Assembly: GCA_944326905.1 (NCBI GenBank)
Contig: CALVFU010000004.1
Coordinates: 80,619 to 115,948 of the forward strand
From: Candidatus Gastranaerophilales bacterium
Lineage (GTDB): Bacteria; Cyanobacteriota; Vampirovibrionia; Gastranaerophilales; Gastranaerophilaceae
Length of the DNA: 35,330 nucleotides
Reading direction: 5' to 3'
The notes under the pieces were generated by a model that was not told where the DNA came from, did not search any database, and was given only the letters and a program-made list of their open reading frames with translations. The translations under genes were made by a program, and so were the position numbers. Below, in pieces: positions 5,306 to 27,312 of the stretch (positions are counted from its first letter, which is position 1; the number at the start of each line of letters is the position of its first letter).

Positions 5306-5348
5306 TCGGGTAATGGTTATAAATTTTTTAAAAAATATTATTATTTTT

Positions 5349-7943
5349 ATGAAAAATATAAAATTTATTTTAATAATATCGGTTGTTTTATTCGGATTAA
5401 AGGGAAATTGTAATGATATAATTGTTGGGAATTTTGATTCTCTTGTTAATACACAATATCAAGATGGGGATGTTGTAACCTTTACTAGCGGATTTACCAG
5501 TGAAGGAAATATTGGAAATATATTTCCTAATATTAATAATATAACTTTCTATGGAAATAACTATATAATAAATGGTGATAATATATATAGCGGTTTTATA
5601 GTCAATAGTCAAGCAGATTTTAATAGTGTTGATATGAGTCATTGCAAAGGACAGACTTTAAATAATTCAAGTTATGCCGGCGCGGTGTTAAATAACGGAG
5701 GAAATGTTCATATTAATTATGCTGCTTTTAGTAATAACTTTGCTGATGCTTCTGGTTTAAATTTTAGCTATGGAGGGGCGATATATAATACCAATGGCGG
5801 TATTACGGATATTGATACGGTATTATTTGAAAATAATTATGTATATGGCGGACTGGCTACAGGCGGAGCAGTCTCTAATGGCGCTTATAATAATAACAGA
5901 GCGGATATGTCAATAAACAATTCTATATTTAGGAACAATTACGCTCATGGCTCTGTTAATGCAGAGGGCGGAGCGCTCTATAACAGCGGACGTTTGAATA
6001 TTACTGCTTCAACTTTTAGTGATAATACGGTAAGCGGGGATTCTGGTACATTTTTATCCGGCGGTGCAATTTATAATACAGGCGAAATTACTATTGATGA
6101 TGTTCGTTTACTCAATAATAAAGTTAATAATGATGAAGAAGCTTTTGGCGATGGAGGGGCTTTACATAATGCTGGTACTATATCTATAAATAATTCTACA
6201 ATCAGCGGAAATAGCGTTTCTTCTGATGGATTAAGCGAAGGCGGTGCTATATATAACAGTGCTGGCGGTACTTTGAGAATTGCTAATTCTACTATAGAGA
6301 ATAATTCTGCTATTGGAACACAAGTTGCAGAAGGTGGTGCCGTTTATAATGAGAGTAATTTGATAATAGAAAATACTACTTTCAAAAATAATTATGTGAA
6401 TAGTAGCGAAAAAAATGATATTTATAATGCGAGTAATCTAACCTTTACAGGCAGCGGAACAACAAATATTTTAAGCGGGATAAGCGGCAGCGGTAATATA
6501 ACAAAAACAGAAAGCGGGGTATTAAACCTTGGAGGGGATAATAATACATACAACGGAAATTTTATTTTATCTGGCGGAACTCTTAATCTGCTGGCGGATA
6601 GTACTTATTTTAATGCTGCTAATACTATACTCGGCTCGGATGCTTTATTTAATATGCAAAATAATGAGATTAATAATATAAACTTTGGAAATCTGTCTTT
6701 GAATGGAACAATAAAGCTTGCTGCCGATATGGATTTAAATACAAATATAATGGATACTATAAGCGCAAATTCATTAAGCGGTTCAGGCGATATATTAGTA
6801 AGTGCAGTTGGTGTTGAAGGAATACCTAAAAGCCAATATATATCAATTCCATTTGCAGATTCGGTGCTGAAAGATGAAGTATCATATACTCCAAGTGTTT
6901 TAAATACTCCAATATACCAATATAATGTAAGCTACAACAGTATGGATGGACATTTTGAATTGTCACGCCGTGGTTTTAATTCAGGTATTTTGTCATTTCA
7001 GATTGCATCACAGCTTGCGGGTTATCTTGCTATGATTGATACATACAGGAATGTTTTTTCAAATCTTGATATGGTAATGATTATCCCGCCGGATAAAGAT
7101 AAATTTTCCTATAATAATAAAATAGCTTCAATATCCCCAAATTATACTTTCTCTCCTCTTCAATTTCCTGAACAGCGTGCAGGAATTTGGTTTAAACCTT
7201 ATACAACATTTGAATCCGTAAAATTAAAAAATTCTCCTAAAATATCTAATGTAAGTTATGGCAGTTTATTGGGTATAGAAAGCGGGCTTACAAAAATAAA
7301 AAACGGATGGTATGGAATGTATGGTTTGTATGCCGGATATAATGGTTCACATCAAGCGTTTGAAGGAAATGATATTTATAATAACGGCGGACTTTTAGGT
7401 GTAGATGCTGTATTTTACAAGGATAACTTTTTTACGGCGTGGACTGTTAATGCCGGTGGAAATGCCTCTGAGGCTAATACAAACCTTGGCAGGGAAAATT
7501 TTGCAATGGTAATGGCGGGTATTGCGCAGAAAACAGGATATAATATCGAAACTTTAGATCGGAAACTGGTTATTCAGCCAAGTATTCTTACTTCGTATAC
7601 CTTTGTTAATACCTTTAATCACAATGGCGTGCAAAATGTAAAAATCAATACTCGTCCATTGAATGCTTTGCAAGTGGAGCCCGGGATTAAATTAATTGCT
7701 AATTGCAAAAATTATTTGCAACCATATATTCAGGTGTCTATGGTCTGGAACTTGATTGACAGTGCAAAATATAGAGCAGATGACGTTTTCCTGCCTAATC
7801 TTACTGTAAAACCTTTTGTTCAATATGGGATTGGTGTTCAAAAAAGATATGGTGAGAGATTAACAGGATTTTTAGAAGCAATGATTAGAAATGGCGGTCG
7901 TCAAGGTGTTGCTCTCCAATTTGGTTTAAGGGTAAGTATTTAA
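5349..7943 (+). CDS. Pmp-like autotransporter: beta-helix passenger with GGA(I/L/V)xN / FxxN repeats and C-terminal beta-barrel
   Basis: Predicted surface protein of about 864 residues. An N-terminal signal peptide (basic start, hydrophobic core, then NCND) precedes about eight repeats of roughly 28-35 residues. Each pairs a GGA[ILV]xN-type motif (GGAIYN, GGALYN, GGAVYN, GGALHN) with an FxNN-type motif (FENNYV, FRNNYA, FSDNTV, IENNSA), over residues about 110-350. This is the repeat logic of chlamydial polymorphic membrane proteins. A segment near 380-415 (TKTESGVLNLGG, then LSGGTLNL) matches autotransporter-associated repeats. The last ~250 residues are strand-rich, begin near GIWFKPY and look like an autotransporter barrel. 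An ATG at 5313 would add 12 residues; 5349 is preferred because it begins a normal signal peptide and leaves room for a leader beside the dyad ending at 5305. Neither start has a clear ribosome binding site. Likely an adhesin or host-contact protein (inference). Confidence 0.85.
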   Translation: MKNIKFILIISVVLFGLKGNCNDIIVGNFDSLVNTQYQDGDVVTFTSGFTSEGNIGNIFPNINNITFYGNNYIINGDNIYSGFIVNSQADFNSVDMSHCKGQTLNNSSYAGAVLNNGGNVHINYAAFSNNFADASGLNFSYGGAIYNTNGGITDIDTVLFENNYVYGGLATGGAVSNGAYNNNRADMSINNSIFRNNYAHGSVNAEGGALYNSGRLNITASTFSDNTVSGDSGTFLSGGAIYNTGEITIDDVRLLNNKVNNDEEAFGDGGALHNAGTISINNSTISGNSVSSDGLSEGGAIYNSAGGTLRIANSTIENNSAIGTQVAEGGAVYNESNLIIENTTFKNNYVNSSEKNDIYNASNLTFTGSGTTNILSGISGSGNITKTESGVLNLGGDNNTYNGNFILSGGTLNLLADSTYFNAANTILGSDALFNMQNNEINNINFGNLSLNGTIKLAADMDLNTNIMDTISANSLSGSGDILVSAVGVEGIPKSQYISIPFADSVLKDEVSYTPSVLNTPIYQYNVSYNSMDGHFELSRRGFNSGILSFQIASQLAGYLAMIDTYRNVFSNLDMVMIIPPDKDKFSYNNKIASISPNYTFSPLQFPEQRAGIWFKPYTTFESVKLKNSPKISNVSYGSLLGIESGLTKIKNGWYGMYGLYAGYNGSHQAFEGNDIYNNGGLLGVDAVFYKDNFFTAWTVNAGGNASEANTNLGRENFAMVMAGIAQKTGYNIETLDRKLVIQPSILTSYTFVNTFNHNGVQNVKINTRPLNALQVEPGIKLIANCKNYLQPYIQVSMVWNLIDSAKYRADDVFLPNLTVKPFVQYGIGVQKRYGERLTGFLEAMIRNGGRQGVALQFGLRVSI

Positions 7944-11277: not shown

Positions 11278-12561
11278 TTATAACAGCTCTGTTTTGGCTA
11301 AATCTTCAACATCTAAAACTCTTAAAAGCGCTGTCCAGCATTTACAGTAATCAACAAGAGCATGTGTGTAGCCTATGATTATATTTTTGTAGCTGTTTTC
11401 CATTACTATGAGGGATATTAAATCAGATTTATCTTTCTTATAACTTTCTTTAGCGTAGCTCATAAGAATAAAAGAATCTCCGATTATTTTGGTATTATAA
11501 TAGTTTAAATTGGTTTTTGCAGTATTAAAACTTTCATAGGCAGCCGCTATATCTTTAATAAGTTCATCGACAACTGAATTGTATTTTAAATTTGCTTGCT
11601 CTAATTGTATTTTTGCATTTCTTATCTCTGGGGCAAAGGTATAAAATATAGGAATATTAACAAGATTAACCCCTACGTATGCTCCGCCGTAAAATGAGCC
11701 GGTCGGATTTCTGTAAGCTTCGTTGTATGACCACCCGGCGGTTAATTCCATATCGGGGACACGCTGTCTTATTGTATTTGTAAGATTTTTTTCTGCCGCA
11801 TCAATTTCTTGTCGTGCTATTTTGACTGAAAAACAATTACTTAAGTACTTTGTAAGAATTTCATCTAAAGACGGCAGGATGGTGTCAGGCGGCGGAACCA
11901 AAAGCGCAGAGTAATTGTCTGAATATATCCCTTCTACAGAATCAAAATCTTGTTCTTTACAATAAATGATACTGTTTAACTCATTTATTGCATTATTTAC
12001 ATTCACTTTCGCTGAATTTTTTTGTATTTTTAATTGATTAATAGCAAGTTCGGTTTGGAAAATATCCATTTGATTAGCTAGTCCTGCACTGTATTTTCCT
12101 TTTGCTAAATCGCATAACTCGGATAAAAGCTCATACTGCTCTTCTATTTGTTTTAATATTGTTTTTGCTCCTACAAGCTCTACATATGCATCTCTTACAT
12201 CCATACCGAGTTCGAATCTTGTCTGGTTAAAGTTTTCTTTTGAAAGCTTATATTCACTTTCTGCAAGCTTTTTTCTAGGATGCCGTTTTGCAAGTTCTAT
12301 TAATTGTGTGACCCCAAGATATTGCGGGTCATTTTCACCTGCTTTTCCCATATTAAAAAAAGCGCCTATTGTTGGATTTTTAAGCTGATTTGCTTGTTCA
12401 ATACGGTTTTTTGCAGCCTCTACATCCATTTCTTTTATCTTTAAGCGCTGGCTGTATGTCTGAGCATATTCAATAGCTGCCGGCAGGGTGATTTCTGTAT
12501 ATTCTGCCGCATAAACGCTTGGTGTAATTATAAGTATAAAAAATAAAACCAGCTTTCTCAT
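11278..12561 (-). CDS. TolC-family outer membrane efflux protein
   Basis: Outer-membrane channel component of a tripartite efflux or type I secretion system, 427 residues. It begins with a signal peptide (positive start, hydrophobic core, cleavage near YAAEY). Two outer-membrane-efflux repeats follow: the first includes PAAIEYAQTYS and long helices with KNRIEQANQLKNPTIGAFF, the second starts near LDEILTKYL with MELTAGWSYNEAYRNPTGSF. The heptad-like helical stretches (about residues 160-215 and 310-390) are the periplasmic coiled-coil barrel. No membrane-fusion or inner-membrane pump partner is adjacent. A MATE transporter lies 4 kb away but does not normally use TolC. It is the first gene of the tolC-dxr-HAD-ispF run, following a terminator. 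Confidence 0.92.
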   Translation of the reverse strand: MRKLVLFFILIITPSVYAAEYTEITLPAAIEYAQTYSQRLKIKEMDVEAAKNRIEQANQLKNPTIGAFFNMGKAGENDPQYLGVTQLIELAKRHPRKKLAESEYKLSKENFNQTRFELGMDVRDAYVELVGAKTILKQIEEQYELLSELCDLAKGKYSAGLANQMDIFQTELAINQLKIQKNSAKVNVNNAINELNSIIYCKEQDFDSVEGIYSDNYSALLVPPPDTILPSLDEILTKYLSNCFSVKIARQEIDAAEKNLTNTIRQRVPDMELTAGWSYNEAYRNPTGSFYGGAYVGVNLVNIPIFYTFAPEIRNAKIQLEQANLKYNSVVDELIKDIAAAYESFNTAKTNLNYYNTKIIGDSFILMSYAKESYKKDKSDLISLIVMENSYKNIIIGYTHALVDYCKCWTALLRVLDVEDLAKTELL

Positions 12562-12604
12562 TCTAAAACCTAATATAACATAAAATATTATATTGGAAAA
12601 ATTC

Positions 12605-12642
12605 GTATAAAAGACACCCGGGCTATTTATAGCCCGGGCGTC
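12605..12642 (-). terminator. Intrinsic terminator after the GH13-like gene
   Basis: GACACCCGGGCTA (12613-12625) and TAGCCCGGGCGTC (12630-12642) form a strong hairpin with a TTTA loop (plus strand). On the minus strand it is followed by a TTTTAT tract. It lies just past the stop at 12658 and separates that gene from the tolC operon. Confidence 0.85.
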
Positions 12643-12657
12643 AATGTCTGATAAAGG

Positions 12658-14949
12658 TTAATTAATTTGTTCTACCGTGTAGAATTTAAATTCAGCAGGC
12701 ATGATTTTACTGAACATTAATTTGTCTGTCGGAGTTTGAAACTTTTCTTCAACATAGTTCTCTCCATCAAAGACATACTGACCTGTTATCTGATAATCGC
12801 AAGAGAGTTCAATATTTTTATCAAAGACTTCGCGACCTTCTCTGAGTTCTACATGCTGCTCACACCCCTCCCATACCCAGAATTTTTCTGATGGGTTATG
12901 GTAGTTTGCGGCAACAAGGATTGAGTTCTTAAGTCCTTCTTTTGATATCTGCCATAAAACAAATCCGTCGTCATCTTGTCTTATAATATGAGCTTCTCCT
13001 CCAGATATAATTGGGGAGTTTTTAACAAAACGATCTATGGCATCAAATTTTGCATAAAACTCGTAATCTTTTTCTCTGGGCATTGAAATTTCAGCGCCAA
13101 TAACGCTTTCTATTCCCTTTGTTGTAAAGGATTCATCTCCGTCAATATATAAAATCGGTCGTTGGGCAAATTTTCCGCCGGGCAGAAATTTGTACTTAAA
13201 CCATTTAAACAGCGCACCTTGTTCTCCAAGCTGTCCAGGGTATCGGTCTATTGCTGAAAACTCACCGTCTTGGTTGTTGTATGTCTTAAGAATTGATAAA
13301 CAATTCTTTTCATTTCCTGAAGTATTGTAATTAGTGAGCTCTAGATTGTCATTTGCAATTCTTTCCGGGGTTTTGTCACTTTGAGCAACAATATCGCTAC
13401 CCCAGAGAATATCAAAGTTCATATCTTCATGGTATTCTTTTAGATAATTATCCCAAAGCATATACTCTGCAAGAGTTCCAAAGTATGGGATTTTATTCTT
13501 TAGAGCAGTATTTAACTTGCCTAATACTTTTCTTGGAGCTCTGTAACTTATTGGAATGCCGTCTTTTTCGGAAACGTCATCGACTATGTGGTCAATATGG
13601 TCAACTCGGTATCCGTCAAAATTAAATTCCGACTGCAAATCTTTCATATAGTTAATAAAGAAATCTATTACATTGTTATTGTATTCCCCGCTTTCAAGAT
13701 TTACAAAATAATATGGTGTTTGACAGTCAAGATTTGCAAATTTTGTTACGTCTTCACCTTTGTAGTTGTAATGCTTAAAAGTCGGATAAGAACCGCAGTC
13801 ACTCATTTTGTCAAATACAGGCACTCCGGCTGAACACCAAGCGCCGCCGGGAGCTGGCCACATTGCTTCTGCTATAAGTTTATTAATTACTTCACTTTGA
13901 TTAGTGATATCGGATTCTTTTAATTTTTTTGAGTGGTTATTGATTACTGAAGATATTATATTCCTTGCTTTTCTGTGAAGTTTGACTTGAATATCTTTTT
14001 CCAGCATTGCATTTGAAAGATATTTCTTCTTATCAATTAATGCTTTATCAATTTCATCATAAATGACTTTGTAATTTTCTGCTAAATCTCCTATCCCTGA
14101 ACGGAGAGATTTTTTATACAAATCTTTCACTATGTTAATATCTTCTGTGTTGTATTTGTTTTTTATTTCATCATATTCATTACAAACTTTATCAACATTT
14201 TTTTCTATTTCGGATATAAGTGCATTAATATCAAACCATCTTGCACACTCAGGATTTGCAAGAACTATTTTGGAGTACCTTGCAGTCTGTGGAAGAATAT
14301 CATATATTACCGGGTGTCCTGCAAGCTGTGCCATTTCTATAAATAATTTAACTTGCCCGTTTTCATCAAATCCTGTTTTCTCAGTTATATTTTTATCTTC
14401 TAAGTTGGGGCTTACTGCTGATGAAGTAGGAAGATATGCACATCCGAATTCTCTCGGGTGGAAAGGGATTAAATAAACAGTTGTTGAGAAAATATTGTTT
14501 TCTAAATTCCCGGTAGGAAGTATTGCAAGCTGTTTAATCCAGTCTGCAAGTTTCCCTGTATCAGATTTTTCGTTTCCGTTTCCCAACCCTGCGAGGTTGA
14601 TAAGTTTTATGTTATGTCCTTCTTTTTTTATCCAATCGGAATTTTGTACATTATTTCTTGCAAGTACAGACGGATTGTCAAAATGAAATGTATAAAGTTC
14701 ATCATAAATACCATTTTGTTTCCACTTGTATTCAAGACAATATAAGCCTTCTGCATCACTTAACTCTTCTAGTGCGCGAATATGCGGATATGGAAGGTAT
14801 CCATAATTTTCTAATAACGAACTTAAATAATTTTTCCGCTCCTCAGAGATTGAGTTGTAGGAGTAAATTTCTTTTAATTTATTTACGAACTCTGTTAATT
14901 GGGCGGATTTGTCTACTTTTGTTTCTTTTTTGAATAAAAAATTCAGCAT
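12658..14949 (-). CDS. GH13-type alpha-amylase-family protein, divergent active-site region
   Basis: Cytoplasmic protein of 763 residues with no signal peptide. The (beta/alpha)8 barrel signatures are FDGYRVDHIDH with the nucleophile Asp450, FGTLAEYML with acid/base Glu495, and a region IV-like NNQDGE with Asp561, so the three carboxylates of family GH13 are present. An upstream region I-like segment is VIYDILPQTARYSK (Asp217), followed by ANPECARWF as in maltosyltransferase-type enzymes. Two histidines usual in GH13 are absent: region IV has NQD instead of NHD, and region I lacks the NH pair. Residues 250-355 are a long charged helical insertion. It probably rearranges or hydrolyses storage alpha-glucan; the reaction cannot be named. 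The ribosome binding site AAGGAGCT precedes the ATG by 9 nt. It appears monocistronic with a strong terminator. Confidence 0.72.
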   Translation of the reverse strand: MLNFLFKKETKVDKSAQLTEFVNKLKEIYSYNSISEERKNYLSSLLENYGYLPYPHIRALEELSDAEGLYCLEYKWKQNGIYDELYTFHFDNPSVLARNNVQNSDWIKKEGHNIKLINLAGLGNGNEKSDTGKLADWIKQLAILPTGNLENNIFSTTVYLIPFHPREFGCAYLPTSSAVSPNLEDKNITEKTGFDENGQVKLFIEMAQLAGHPVIYDILPQTARYSKIVLANPECARWFDINALISEIEKNVDKVCNEYDEIKNKYNTEDINIVKDLYKKSLRSGIGDLAENYKVIYDEIDKALIDKKKYLSNAMLEKDIQVKLHRKARNIISSVINNHSKKLKESDITNQSEVINKLIAEAMWPAPGGAWCSAGVPVFDKMSDCGSYPTFKHYNYKGEDVTKFANLDCQTPYYFVNLESGEYNNNVIDFFINYMKDLQSEFNFDGYRVDHIDHIVDDVSEKDGIPISYRAPRKVLGKLNTALKNKIPYFGTLAEYMLWDNYLKEYHEDMNFDILWGSDIVAQSDKTPERIANDNLELTNYNTSGNEKNCLSILKTYNNQDGEFSAIDRYPGQLGEQGALFKWFKYKFLPGGKFAQRPILYIDGDESFTTKGIESVIGAEISMPREKDYEFYAKFDAIDRFVKNSPIISGGEAHIIRQDDDGFVLWQISKEGLKNSILVAANYHNPSEKFWVWEGCEQHVELREGREVFDKNIELSCDYQITGQYVFDGENYVEEKFQTPTDKLMFSKIMPAEFKFYTVEQIN

Positions 14950-15215
14950 TTGCGACAGCTCCTTAATATATCTTATTTATATGATAGTCGTAACTTATAC
15001 TAGCATGGCTGAAAATATTTTACAAGAAAATTATCGGATTAAGATTGGTTGGCTAACTTTTTGTAATGGTTGTGATTATTGAATTAACGACGTATAAAAG
15101 ATATAAAAAAGATAAAATAATTGTTAAGTTTTGTAACAAATATTTCCGTTATTGAAATTTAAATAAATCTATATACTTTATATATATAAGATGTAAGATA
15201 TATGAGGATAAAGTT
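14950..15215. other. Divergent intergenic region with promoters for the GH13-like gene and the coiled-coil gene
   Basis: AT-rich, no ORF. The left end carries the GH13-like leader. The right half carries the two-box element described separately for the gene at 15216. No RNA gene is recognised. Confidence 0.6.
15124..15188 (+). promoter_or_regulatory. Two-box upstream element (copy 1)
   Basis: Box 1 TTAAGTTTTGTAACAA (15124-15139) and box 2 TATACTTTATATATATA (15172-15188) are separated by 32 nt, with box 2 ending 27 nt before the ATG at 15216. Both boxes recur without mismatch, in the same order and orientation, upstream of the minus-strand gene starting at 27168, also 27 nt from its ATG. Probably a promoter and activator site for an alternative sigma factor or dedicated regulator (inference). 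Confidence 0.65.
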
Positions 15216-16220
15216 ATGAATCCCTTAATGTTTTTAATGAGCGGTTGCTTTGGCGGATATAATACTTGCGGAATGTCGCCGGGAACAATGAGTACCTTAA
15301 GTAATATCTGGGGGATTGCCGGAATGCAATCAGCAATGCAATGCGGACTGCCATTTGGCGGAATAGGTACTGTTGGCGGTTTAAGTACTGCAACACCTCC
15401 CTATAAGGCTGCACAAAACAGTAAAACAAATGAAGAGGCTTTTACATCTGCTGAATTGAAAGTTCAAATGGAAGAAGCTGAAGCTGATTTTAATAAATTA
15501 AACTCACTTTGTCAAAAAGTTAATGAGTATAAAAACGACACAGAAACAAAAAGAGCAGATTTAGAGACAAACGTAGCAAATGCATATAAAAGTATACAGA
15601 CTGCAAATGAAAATCTTAAAAATACACAGGAGCAATTAGCGGTATTAAATAAGCAGCAGCCGCTGGATAAAGCTGCAATACAAGATTTACAAGCAAAAGT
15701 TAAAGCATATGAGACAGAGAAAAAACAAGCAGAAGAAGCACTGGATAAAGCAAGGACTGAATTGGACGCGTTTACTATGGCGCAAGAGGAAAATGAGGAA
15801 GAATATAATAAACTTCTTGAAAAAAGAGAAGCTGCTTACAGTAAGTATAAAGAATTATCTGACGCATACTTAAACGCGCTTACAAAAGAAAATAACGCTC
15901 AAAATGTTATTAATGACAGAGCTGACGATAAAGATCAATCAGGCAAATGGTGGAATCGTACAGTATTAAATCCTGAAAACTGGTTTAATAAAAAAGTTGG
16001 ACTCTGGGGTGATGATAAGAGTACACCGGATGCAAATATTGCAAAATGTTTAAGATTGCTCAATAAAAAAGGTCGCTCAGAAGCTTTAGCTTACGCCCAA
16101 GAACAAGGTTTGATAACAGTTTCAAACGGTCAAGCTAAAACAGAGTATTCAGAGCTTCAAGGGCTGGTTAATTTGTATAACGGCAGAGACCCTGTAGCGC
16201 AAGATCCGCTGGAACAATAA
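15216..16220 (+). CDS. Hypothetical coiled-coil protein
   Basis: Not recognised. 334 residues without a signal peptide or membrane helix. The first ~60 residues are rich in Gly, Met and Cys (MSGCFGGYNTCGMSPG, then CGLPFGGIG). Residues about 75-235 are highly charged and heptad-like (for example LEKREAAYSKYKELSDAY), predicting a long coiled coil. The remainder contains the aromatic stretch WWNRTVLNPENWFNKK and a small helical C-terminus ending DPLEQ. Ribosome binding site GAGGA precedes the ATG. The shared two-box upstream element links it in regulation to the genes at 27168 (minus), 19690 and 18187. A structural or scaffold role is plausible but unproven. A terminator follows 8 nt after the stop. 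Confidence 0.8.
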   Translation: MNPLMFLMSGCFGGYNTCGMSPGTMSTLSNIWGIAGMQSAMQCGLPFGGIGTVGGLSTATPPYKAAQNSKTNEEAFTSAELKVQMEEAEADFNKLNSLCQKVNEYKNDTETKRADLETNVANAYKSIQTANENLKNTQEQLAVLNKQQPLDKAAIQDLQAKVKAYETEKKQAEEALDKARTELDAFTMAQEENEEEYNKLLEKREAAYSKYKELSDAYLNALTKENNAQNVINDRADDKDQSGKWWNRTVLNPENWFNKKVGLWGDDKSTPDANIAKCLRLLNKKGRSEALAYAQEQGLITVSNGQAKTEYSELQGLVNLYNGRDPVAQDPLEQ

Positions 16221-19586: not shown

Positions 19587-19637
19587 AATGGGCGGAGAAA
19601 TTTTAAATTTTCCGCCCATATAATAGGCAATTTTTAA
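19587..19637 (+). terminator. Intrinsic terminator after the GAF/HD-GYP gene
   Basis: ATGGGCGGA (19588-19596) and TCCGCCCAT (19611-19619) close a hairpin extended by GAAATTT/AAATTT pairing. A T-rich stretch (ATTTTTAAT) follows about 12 nt further on. Confidence 0.7.
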
Positions 19638-19644
19638 TCTGAAA

Positions 19645-19661
19645 AATACTTTATATATATG
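19645..19661 (+). promoter_or_regulatory. Box 2 of the shared upstream element
   Basis: AATACTTTATATATATG shares 15 consecutive bases with box 2 of the copies at 15172 and 27196, and ends 28 nt before the ATG at 19690. Ten bases upstream, GCAATTTTTA also occurs at the same distance in the 27196 copy. A clear box 1 is not seen here; the preceding gene's terminator occupies that place. Confidence 0.5.
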
Positions 19662-19689: not shown

Positions 19690-20238
19690 ATGCCGGACGA
19701 GAAAAATGATATCAAAACATTTGGGACTCTTCAGAATTTTATCAATTTTGACGGGACAGGAACAGCGTTATCAACTTTCGGGGTAAAGGTCTCCGAGGGA
19801 ATTACTGTTGAGCAGTCTGTCGGCAATGATTGGGATAAAAATGGTAATATTTCAAATTTTAGAGGTATTACAGACTTTAAAACGTCAAATAAAATTGCTG
19901 ATTTAGGAAGAGCTGGTCTAAATTTTTCTTCACGTTCAAGAGTTTCGTATAATAATAATTCTGCCTCATTAGCAGAAAGATTTGCTCTAGGTCTAGATAT
20001 ACCTGTATCCGATAAACTTTCTTTTTATTTTACGCCGAACTCAACTACTACATATAATTTTAGAACAGGCAAGCTGTCTGAACCGACACTAAGCGTATAC
20101 AGCGGAGTAAATCTAAAATTTCAATTTATGAAAAATGATTGTACATTAACAGCTGAAGGTCAGGCTTATGATTTAATAAGAAAGCCGACAGCTCCTTCTA
20201 AGACAGGATTTAATTTAATGTTTAAAATGAATTTTTAG
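19690..20238 (+). CDS. Hypothetical small beta-rich protein
   Basis: Not recognised. 182 residues, predicted mostly beta strand with alternating hydrophobic residues and turns rich in Asn, Ser and Gly. It ends GFNLMFKMNF, an alternating pattern with terminal Phe as in outer-membrane barrels. No signal peptide exists: upstream the frame meets a stop at 19624 with no alternative start, so Sec export is not evident. The N-terminus MPDEKNDIKTFG resembles that of the preceding GAF/HD-GYP protein (MPEDQNGVSLFG). Ribosome binding site AAGGGAAG. It has its own upstream box and terminator, so is probably monocistronic but co-regulated with its neighbour. Confidence 0.75.
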   Translation: MPDEKNDIKTFGTLQNFINFDGTGTALSTFGVKVSEGITVEQSVGNDWDKNGNISNFRGITDFKTSNKIADLGRAGLNFSSRSRVSYNNNSASLAERFALGLDIPVSDKLSFYFTPNSTTTYNFRTGKLSEPTLSVYSGVNLKFQFMKNDCTLTAEGQAYDLIRKPTAPSKTGFNLMFKMNF

Positions 20239-25530: not shown

Positions 25531-25791
25531 ATGGCAGGATTAGTAAGTATATTGGCACAGGCTCTTATAAAGCCAAAGATGTATGAAATCCAGGCAGCAA
25601 GGCAGGTTGAACGTAAAACTTCATCAAATCCGTTTGCAGGTGATTTCTCAAATCCGTTTGTATCCTCCGCTTCAGCCAATAATCCTTTCCGCTCATACGG
25701 GCAGAACCGCCCTGTACAAGGCGGTTATTTTGCCGGTTATTATAATAATAAACCTAACATCGTTGGACAAAGATTGTTTATTGAAGTGTAA
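25531..25791 (+). CDS. Hypothetical small protein with three NPF repeats
   Basis: Not recognised. 86 residues beginning MAGLVSILAQALIKPK, a short amphipathic or hydrophobic N-terminus without a clear cleavage site. A low-complexity middle follows with Asn-Pro-Phe at residues 33-35, 41-43 and 51-53, then a Gly/Tyr/Asn-rich segment (GGYFAGYYNNK). AGAAAGG precedes the ATG at about 11 nt, which supports translation. It converges with the next gene with a 12-nt gap and no terminator. The upstream 190 nt hold a TTGACT (25464-25469) and TATTAT-like sequence that may be its promoter. Function unknown. Confidence 0.65.
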   Translation: MAGLVSILAQALIKPKMYEIQAARQVERKTSSNPFAGDFSNPFVSSASANNPFRSYGQNRPVQGGYFAGYYNNKPNIVGQRLFIEV

Positions 25792-25803: not shown

Positions 25804-27168
25804 TTATCCCCATACACGTTCCATATACTCATTATTCATATTCATAAACTTATTCCAGCCATTTTTTATTCTTTGCCATAAATTTAGCTTTTCACCATTT
25901 TCATTAGATGCAGGAGTTTTCTCTTCATTGTCATTCTCATCATCTTCTTCAGACGAGCCGGAAGAGGTGATTTTCATGGTTTTCAAGTCTTCTTTAACTT
26001 TATTTTCATTGATTTTATATTCAGGTTTCAGTTCTCCTTTTTCGTCAAGATATCTGCTTCTTAATTCTTGCGGCATGTCGTTAATTTTTTCTTTGTTTTC
26101 GCTATCTTTCTTTCTAGCTTGTTCAAGTTTGATTTCTTTATAGAGCGTGATGAATGCCTTATCAAGTGCATCTTTAGTAGCGTCAGTACATTTTTCATCT
26201 TCTTTGTATACTTTTAATTTATCGGCAAGGTCTGAACGTGCTTCAATTACTTTGCTGCCTTCTTTTACATCTTCTTGGTTAGCTCTGTCAATAAGTGTTT
26301 CTGTTATTATAGTAACGCTTTGTTTTATGCATTGTACAGCTTCTTTTTCAGAATCTTTTCTATCCATCAGTACTCTAATTGGAGTAGTTTTCTTCTTAAT
26401 GGCTTGGTTTTCAATTTCTGCCATAATATTTGAAGCGGTAATACAGCTAGCTTCTTCGCCATTTAAGTTATTCAATATTTTTTCAGCTGTTGCTGTTTGA
26501 TCATAAATGATGTTTGCCTTCATATCTCTTTCTGCGGAGCTTGCAGGAAGTTTGTCTAAGATTTTATGCAGCTTGTCATTTGGAATTTCAGTAATTGCTT
26601 TTTTGAGATTTTCAAGGCAGGTTTTCATTGATGCAGGTGTAGTATTTCCATCATCGTCAAACTCTTCTTTTGCAGCTTTTAATATAGCATTTAGTCCGAG
26701 TTCTTCTTTTATTTTGCTGTCAAGATCATTTAGTCCGTCATATAACTTTTTAAACTCATTTTGCGCGGTCTTAAATTCGTTCTTTTCTTCATCTGTTAAT
26801 TCTTCACCAGGTTTCTTTTTGCCTACAACAGGACTTGTAGACGGTGTGGTGCCAAGAGTCGGCATTATTCCCGGCATTGGCGGCATTTCAAGTTTGAATC
26901 CCGGCATGTTAGTCATCATATTAAACATGTTGTTTGCTGAGTTATATGCATTCTTTGCTGCTATATCCCAAAATTTGGTTAATAATGTTTGGGAATCAAA
27001 TTCAGGCATTGTGAATGAACTATAGCGTATGTTGTGCAGACCGCTTAGTTCCATTCCTAGTGCTGCATTTTGCATCTTAAGATTCATATCAGAAAAAAAC
27101 GTTCTGTCTTTAATCCAGTAATTGTCTACATATGAAGCACATATTCCTAAATTAAGCGGTAATCCCAT
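25804..27168 (-). CDS. Hypothetical charged, helical protein
   Basis: Not recognised. 454 residues, no signal peptide. The first ~95 residues are mixed, and are followed by a Met/Pro-rich linker (MPGFKLEMPPMPGIMP, about 99-114) and a Ser/Thr/Pro stretch. Residues about 125-395 are charged and mostly helical, with cysteines at about 184, 241, 278 and 327. A strongly acidic run (SSEEDDENDNEE) precedes a basic, aromatic tail (LWQRIKNGWNKFMN) that could contact a membrane or partner. GAGGA precedes the ATG. The upstream two-box element is identical to that of the coiled-coil gene at 15216, indicating common control. No homology can be claimed between the two proteins beyond their charged helical character. 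Confidence 0.78.
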   Translation of the reverse strand: MGLPLNLGICASYVDNYWIKDRTFFSDMNLKMQNAALGMELSGLHNIRYSSFTMPEFDSQTLLTKFWDIAAKNAYNSANNMFNMMTNMPGFKLEMPPMPGIMPTLGTTPSTSPVVGKKKPGEELTDEEKNEFKTAQNEFKKLYDGLNDLDSKIKEELGLNAILKAAKEEFDDDGNTTPASMKTCLENLKKAITEIPNDKLHKILDKLPASSAERDMKANIIYDQTATAEKILNNLNGEEASCITASNIMAEIENQAIKKKTTPIRVLMDRKDSEKEAVQCIKQSVTIITETLIDRANQEDVKEGSKVIEARSDLADKLKVYKEDEKCTDATKDALDKAFITLYKEIKLEQARKKDSENKEKINDMPQELRSRYLDEKGELKPEYKINENKVKEDLKTMKITSSGSSEEDDENDNEEKTPASNENGEKLNLWQRIKNGWNKFMNMNNEYMERVWG

Positions 27169-27195: not shown

Positions 27196-27263
27196 TATAT
27201 ATATAAAGTATATCTAAGCCTAAAAATTGCTTTTTTTATGATTTTTATTGTTACAAAACTTAA
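27196..27263 (-). promoter_or_regulatory. Two-box upstream element (copy 2)
   Basis: On the minus strand box 1 TTAAGTTTTGTAACAA (27248-27263) and box 2 TATACTTTATATATATA (27196-27212) are separated by 35 nt. Box 2 ends 27 nt before the ATG at 27168. Both are base-for-base identical to the pair at 15124-15188 on the other strand, 12 kb away, while the sequence between and around them differs. Confidence 0.65.
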
Positions 27264-27312
27264 TAATCTTTTGATGGTTAAAAATCATTATTTTTCGTAC
27301 TAAAAACAAATC

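Follow-up and report, generated by a model that had tools for sequence, protein, structure and literature searches.

A candidate RpaB-activated, order-specific composite promoter upstream of putative surface or export genes in a Gastranaerophilales genome

Within the window (by which we mean the whole stretch of DNA analysed, 35,330 nt), two genes lying on opposite strands and encoding proteins of 334 and 454 amino acids (Table 1) are preceded by the same pair of short sequence boxes. Box 1 (TTAAGTTTTGTAACAA) is matched exactly at 15124-15139 (plus strand) and 27248-27263 (minus strand), and box 2 (TATACTTTATATATATA) is likewise found without a mismatch at both loci, the distance from box 2 to the ATG being 27 nt in each case and the gap between the boxes amounting to 32 nt for the gene at 15216 versus 35 nt for the minus-strand gene at 27168. 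The original prediction had described both boxes as identical base for base at the two loci, with 32 and 35 nt between them and 27 nt from box 2 to the ATG; we recovered the exact coordinates and measured the same values. When up to 3 mismatches were tolerated, box 2 had 5 matches in the window (0.91 expected; 0 of 100 shuffles got to 5) and box 1 had 4 (1.97 expected), the latter count being not striking by itself since 20 of 100 shuffles gave as many; two of these four matches are exact, and each is paired with an exact box 2.

Neither of the two proteins has a Pfam match above cut-off, in agreement with the earlier view that the genes are not recognisable, and with 12 (334 aa) and 5 (454 aa) database proteins, themselves included, both are lineage-restricted. 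The structural model of the 334-aa protein (mean pLDDT 65.6, 124 residues below 50) is confident only in its middle helices. Another copy of the downstream part of the element (hereafter the core), which brings the cores in the window to three in total and was overlooked in the original prediction, precedes a gene for a 182-aa protein and has a best HLR1 match (the recognition sequence considered below) of 10/16 on the strand scored. The window also holds a repetitive 876-aa ORF (5313-7943, plus strand) with an outer-membrane or autotransporter-type look, as judged by eye only, and an 86-aa ORF without a Pfam match (25531-25791, plus strand) that is convergent with the 454-aa orphan gene.

Table 1. 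Coordinates of the genes and of the predicted promoter features in the window.
Feature	Position	Strand	Remarks
Orphan gene encoding 334 aa (coiled-coil-rich); putative target of the element	15216..16220	+	no Pfam match over cut-off
Orphan gene encoding 454 aa; putative target of the element	25804..27168	-	no Pfam match over cut-off
Gene, 182 aa, ATG 28 nt downstream of the end of the third core	19690..20238	+	no Pfam match
HLR1-like site, predicted RpaB site	15120..15137	-	GTTACAAA-AC-TTAACAAT; 15/16 consensus positions; contains most of box 1
Middle element GAAATT	15154..15159	+	18 nt upstream of box 2; from the 40-site alignment
Box 2, TATACTTTATATATATA	15172..15188	+	with the middle element forms the core 15154-15188
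HLR1-like site of the minus-strand gene	27250..27267	+	GTTACAAA-AC-TTAATAAT; 14/16 consensus positions; contains most of box 1
Middle element GCAATT	27225..27230	-	18 nt upstream of box 2; from the 40-site alignment
Box 2, TATACTTTATATATATA	27196..27212	-	with the middle element forms the core 27196-27230
Third core, GCAATT...AATACTTTATATATATG	19627..19661	+	0 core mismatches; without box 1 or HLR1-like site

In the genome that harbors the window (1.78 Mb, 60 contigs), box 1 was matched 52 times with up to 2 mismatches, versus 7 times for the reversed pattern, and box 2 was matched 130 times with up to 3 mismatches, versus 102 for its reversal, so that a loosely defined box 2 is by itself unspecific. 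A weight-matrix scan of 384 kb (the window plus own-genome stretches picked around box hits, and not a random sample) returned 16 paired sites and 0 in the reversed sequence. Thirteen of 59 relatives, among them all 7 of the genus, contained the exact combined pattern (46 sites in total), with 0 reversed hits. A comparison that covered 21 of 30 loci showed orthologous genes to retain the combined pattern from one species to another. Furthermore, the alignment of 40 sites on box 2 brought out a third conserved element, GMAATT, overlooked in the original prediction and situated 18 nt upstream of box 2, in which A and T are invariant (40/40) at two positions absent from every search pattern. Where box 1 was recognisable (in a set that includes sites found via box 1), GAAATT was paired with the 32-nt gap in 29 of 30 sites, and the gap of GCAATT sites ranged from 22 to 43. 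Judged by sequence and spacing, the two boxes are the ends of a single composite promoter-like element, of which the core (GMAATT plus box 2, searched for as GMAATT-N11-AWATACTTTATATATAYR with up to 2 mismatches) appears to be the order-specific part.

At this threshold the core has 29 copies in the own genome and was found in 58 of the 59 relatives (the reversed pattern giving 2 hits in all), the single relative without it being a member of another order; the 22 order members from other families had 2 to 13 copies each. A class-wide sample placed the core in 98/98 members of the order (5 to 65 copies each, 97 of the 98 genomes coming from one family) versus 0/96 genomes from other orders, the reversed pattern giving a single hit. 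Among the genomes sampled, the core is thus restricted to one order, most likely the Gastranaerophilales. Boxes that are frequent and show no bias to gene starts, which the original prediction had named as evidence against itself, are not what we observed, since 19 of the 24 cores in 451 kb of own sequence (stretches picked around hits, and not a random sample of the genome) lie 10-46 nt before an ATG-started ORF of at least 50 codons, as compared to 12-17% of control positions (478 of 4000 random and 172 of 998 TATATA positions). We also noted a full element near position 10910 of L074 (minus strand) and in L120 (relative G006) that is followed by conserved sequence with no clear ORF within 150 nt, and that may possibly serve a distant start or a small RNA. 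The copies near 8972 in L068 and near 9210 in L071 (minus strand) are almost identical and have both a long leader and the start of a short ORF in common; this pair is apparently a real duplication.

The -35 and -10 hexamers of a sigma-70 promoter are usually about 17 nt apart. The core does not match this housekeeping layout in the 40-site alignment, in which GMAATT and TATACT are separated by 12 nt and no further conserved hexamer lies between them, and it appears unlike a standard -35/-10 pair. The genome has 8 sigma factor candidates over Pfam cut-off, two of which were assigned by family (one FliA/WhiG-like and over cut-off, one SigB/SigF/SigG-like and below it), and none of the 8 could be tied to the core.

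RpaB is the response regulator through which photosynthetic cyanobacteria react to light and redox conditions. As for the upstream box, the RpaB of these cyanobacteria is described in PMC13421787 as recognising KTTACAWW-N2-KTTACAWW (HLR1) and as activating from about -45 to -66; the consensus and its use are also given in PMC6331805 and PMC11633204. Read on the opposite strand, box 1 is a near-match to HLR1 at both window sites (15/16 for the plus-strand gene and 14/16 for the minus-strand gene, with an exact HLR1 at neither), the site of the minus-strand gene being 3 nt farther out. An unbiased test was offered by 40 sites chosen, among the matches listed, by the core alone (0-1 mismatches), a choice that avoids selection for box 1, in five other genomes of two families (9 sites from G046, 7 from G049 and 8 each from G028, G228 and G210). 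An HLR1 of at least 14/16 was found at 27 of the 40 sites versus 2.6% of shuffles, and an exact one at 10 of the 40 versus 0/4000 shuffles. Fifteen of the 27 good HLR1 matches start at -52 or -53 from box 2, on the opposite strand. Compared with the own genus, G046 and G049 show other bases at the free and W positions and retain the TTACA halves. In the other sets a match of at least 14/16 was reached by 17/27 own-genome sites (a biased set), by 39/53 sites of relatives (which share few sites with the core-picked 40) and by 22/42 sites on named contigs, as compared to 2.0-3.5% of shuffles. The 33/40 obtained for the box 2 alignment is a biased rate, because these sites were partly found by box 1, and its null was made of single-base shuffles (two-base-block shuffles having been used for the other HLR1 sets).

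The half-sites repeat with a period of 10, at which 45 of 121 sites reach 11/12, as against at most 6 for any other period. Overall, an HLR1-like site is present on half to three quarters of the core sites, a quarter to half being without a good one. Of the 21 genes with a core, 11 had HLR1 at the matching distance, versus 20 of the 385 counted as without; at least one of these 20 (L072:4362) does carry the two boxes, the middle element being displaced by one base. If TATACT is taken as the -10, an HLR1 starting at -52 falls at about -64 to -47, which fits the RpaB-activated range of -66 to -45; if the later TATATA is taken instead, it falls at about -73 to -56. Beyond the core-bearing promoters, two flagellin-like genes (L087:11130-11993 and 12387-13232) have HLR1-like sites upstream together with a different core (GGAATATATA), and RpaB may therefore control more than one promoter class; such sites before other cores suggest a wider RpaB regulon. 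Exact (16/16) HLR1 sequences at promoter distance and without the described core were also observed at L066:13753, L064:9451, L076:12348, L085:2017 and L085:15947.

The genome encodes an RpaB that scores over the curated cut-off (NF045944, 358.7 versus 330 bits) and is 68% identical to the RpaB of Nostoc, the two proteins being identical in DTRVVDVHISRLRSKLE, which we take to be the DNA-recognition helix. RpaB over cut-off was detected in 52 of 59 relatives and in 1 of 14 control genomes, the sole cyanobacterium among the latter being Synechococcus elongatus. Five of the seven relatives below the cut-off are 66-89% complete; the remaining two, G009 (93%) and G040 (99%), possess core sites although they have no RpaB over cut-off, and they count against a strict dependence on RpaB unless the gene falls into assembly gaps. 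In G005, also one of the seven, the exact combined pattern, box 1 included, was matched at 7 sites. Two other OmpR-type regulators of the own genome (L090 and L094) have RpaB as their best NCBIfam model, with 203.9 and 191.6 versus 330 bits. According to a 2013 study (PMC3787301), RpaA, RpaB and NblS occur in non-photosynthetic Melainabacteria and may have another function there; PMC5877343 reports rpaA and rpaB, and PMC4040986 reports three orders with orthologs of rpaA, rpaB and nblS.

As far as profile matches tell, the genes downstream of the element are mostly orphans, which agrees with the earlier claim that lineage-specific genes are controlled: only three of the 8 other own-genome targets scanned had Pfam matches over cut-off (MgtE_N; a transglutaminase/peptidase-like pair, the site of which has 3 core mismatches; ribbon-helix-helix). 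A further link is to flagellar-type (type III) export genes. In the own genome, a cluster (L085:9696-15631) that is separate from the flagellar FlhA cluster in L084 has FliE, FliF and FliH over Pfam cut-off beside a divergent FHIPEP (FlhA/SctV-like) gene that scores below both NCBIfam family cut-offs, and a gene beside this cluster is preceded by a core with 3 mismatches and an HLR1 of 15/16. Among the 98 sampled order members, 74 have only divergent-strength FHIPEP copies, one has only a weaker match and 23, according to a count made by eye, encode an FlhA of flagellar strength (best E below 1e-250). Among the 69 loci of named genomes with enough sequence, 16 have the core at most 450 nt behind the FlhA/SctV-like gene (versus 9 of 1600 control windows), the other 53 export-gene neighbourhoods being without it. 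In 13 of the 16 core-bearing export loci the first ORF listed encodes the same 80-81-aa protein, which has 526 database matches (itself included), three own-genome paralogs that also have cores (one with 3 mismatches), no Pfam match, and a two-helix model (mean pLDDT 70, pTM 0.32) without a PDB match below E 9. Its assignment as a SctF-type needle subunit is unsupported, neither the sequence (Pfam) nor the fold (PDB) giving a match. A strict co-distribution of the core with FHIPEP genes was rejected because 42 of 96 genomes outside the order carry FHIPEP genes without the core, and a flagellar promoter is not favoured because flagellar-strength FlhA is found in 23/98 order members and the core in 98/98. 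The position of the core behind the FlhA/SctV-like gene would tie a part of the regulon to the export system, and some of the products may be exported.

Taken together, these observations lead us to consider an RpaB-activated, order-specific composite promoter of surface or export genes as the probable explanation, in which we infer the binding of RpaB from the HLR1 match. The HLR1-like upstream box would be bound by the response regulator RpaB just upstream of the polymerase, and transcription would be activated from there; RNA polymerase would contact the core formed by the downstream part (GMAATT-N11-AWATACTTTATATATAYR), which a special sigma factor would read, with transcription starting near box 2, and the target genes would have roles at the cell surface or in a flagellar-type (type III) export system. 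Such an arrangement would set a known regulator-site pair on a core that matches none familiar to us, and would direct it at non-photosynthetic targets. The original prediction had called for a dedicated sigma factor or activator; through the HLR1 match RpaB becomes a candidate for the activator, and the attribute 'dedicated' does not suit it, since RpaB is a general regulator. A bolder version, in which a surface and type III export regulon spanning the order has RpaB as its master switch, along with its own promoter class and a dedicated sigma factor, is conceivable, and we rather doubt it; if it were true, RpaB-HLR1 control would be older than, or independent of, photosynthesis.

GMAATT and box 2 could also be the site of a second lineage-specific DNA-binding protein, with an ordinary sigma factor reading a weak promoter nearby, a view that leaves room for RpaB at box 1. 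In its favour are the length of the conserved core, which exceeds that of the usual -35/-10 contacts, the 12 nt from GMAATT to TATACT, which depart from the 17-nt sigma-70 spacer, and the third core of the window, which stands without an HLR1; since the core keeps a near-constant distance to the start codons, there is little room for a separate downstream promoter, and we consider this alternative unlikely, if deserving of attention. Sites of OmpR-family regulators are often direct repeats of similar half-sites, and box 1 might belong to a member of this family other than RpaB, with the same architecture and activation logic. The genome has at least two more OmpR-type regulators (L090 and L094), and two fairly complete relatives have cores but no RpaB over cut-off; on the other hand, the repeat period is 10, as in HLR1 (a period of 11 was seen in 6 of 121 sites), and RpaB and its Nostoc counterpart share the same presumed recognition helix, so that we regard such a substitution as rather improbable.

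According to PMC13421787, RpaB represses where HLR1 overlaps -38 to +23, and as the start sites are here predicted, one may imagine that HLR1 serves repression, as at high-light genes, and that activation comes from something else. The sites are, however, upstream of the core, at about -64 to -47 or farther with either reading of the -10, which makes a repressive role very improbable. That the boxes represent a duplicated segment, a mobile-element end or a chance A/T similarity might be suggested by the shared long leader of L068 and L071, which look truly duplicated, and by the lack of specificity of a loose box 2 (130 versus 102 reversed). For the set as a whole this has a negligible probability: the full patterns hardly occur in the reversed controls, which rejects chance similarity, unrelated spacers and genes reject a duplicated segment, orthologous genes retain the element across species, and the distribution of the core (58/59; 98/98 versus 0/96) together with the gene-start bias refutes all three. 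The earlier dismissal of a duplicated segment is borne out by the many unlinked loci, their fixed geometry, and the unrelated spacers and downstream genes. The composite promoter activated by RpaB is the reading that we retain.

With it, the RpaB of a non-photosynthetic lineage would gain a concrete predicted site, predicted target promoters (29 cores in one genome, more than half of those examined having an HLR1-like site) and predicted targets without a visible tie to light, and it is likely that RpaB would control surface or secretion genes in these non-photosynthetic bacteria. A role of RpaB without photosynthesis thereby becomes testable in vitro, with no need for culturing, and the core motif can guide the search for orphan proteins, at the surface or possibly exported, in a widespread gut lineage. 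In the literature outside subscription papers and preprints, we found no report of HLR1 sites or of a promoter motif in this lineage.

The closest parallels are the RpaB-activated promoters of Synechocystis and Synechococcus, which have in common with the present element an 18-bp HLR1-like direct repeat (period 10) that precedes the core promoter, as well as an RpaB (here over the curated cut-off) encoded in the genome; they differ in that their targets are photosynthesis genes, whereas the predicted ones here are orphan or export-linked, and in that the core promoter is here fixed and order-specific and the RpaB site a predicted one. The HLR1 variants listed for Synechocystis in PMC6331805 (e.g. 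TTAAGATATATTACAA) resemble the TTAAG forms found here. Host, genes and core promoter are different in that case. The PhoP and WalR boxes of Bacillus, to which OmpR-family regulators bind, likewise consist of related half-sites in direct repeat, with a period of 11 instead of the 10 observed here. In type III secretion regulons, the hrp box is a single promoter motif placed before scattered effector genes. The present element is alike in that one motif precedes many scattered, mostly orphan genes and stands, in some species, directly behind an export gene; the motif itself is unrelated to the hrp box, and the products are here putative export substrates.
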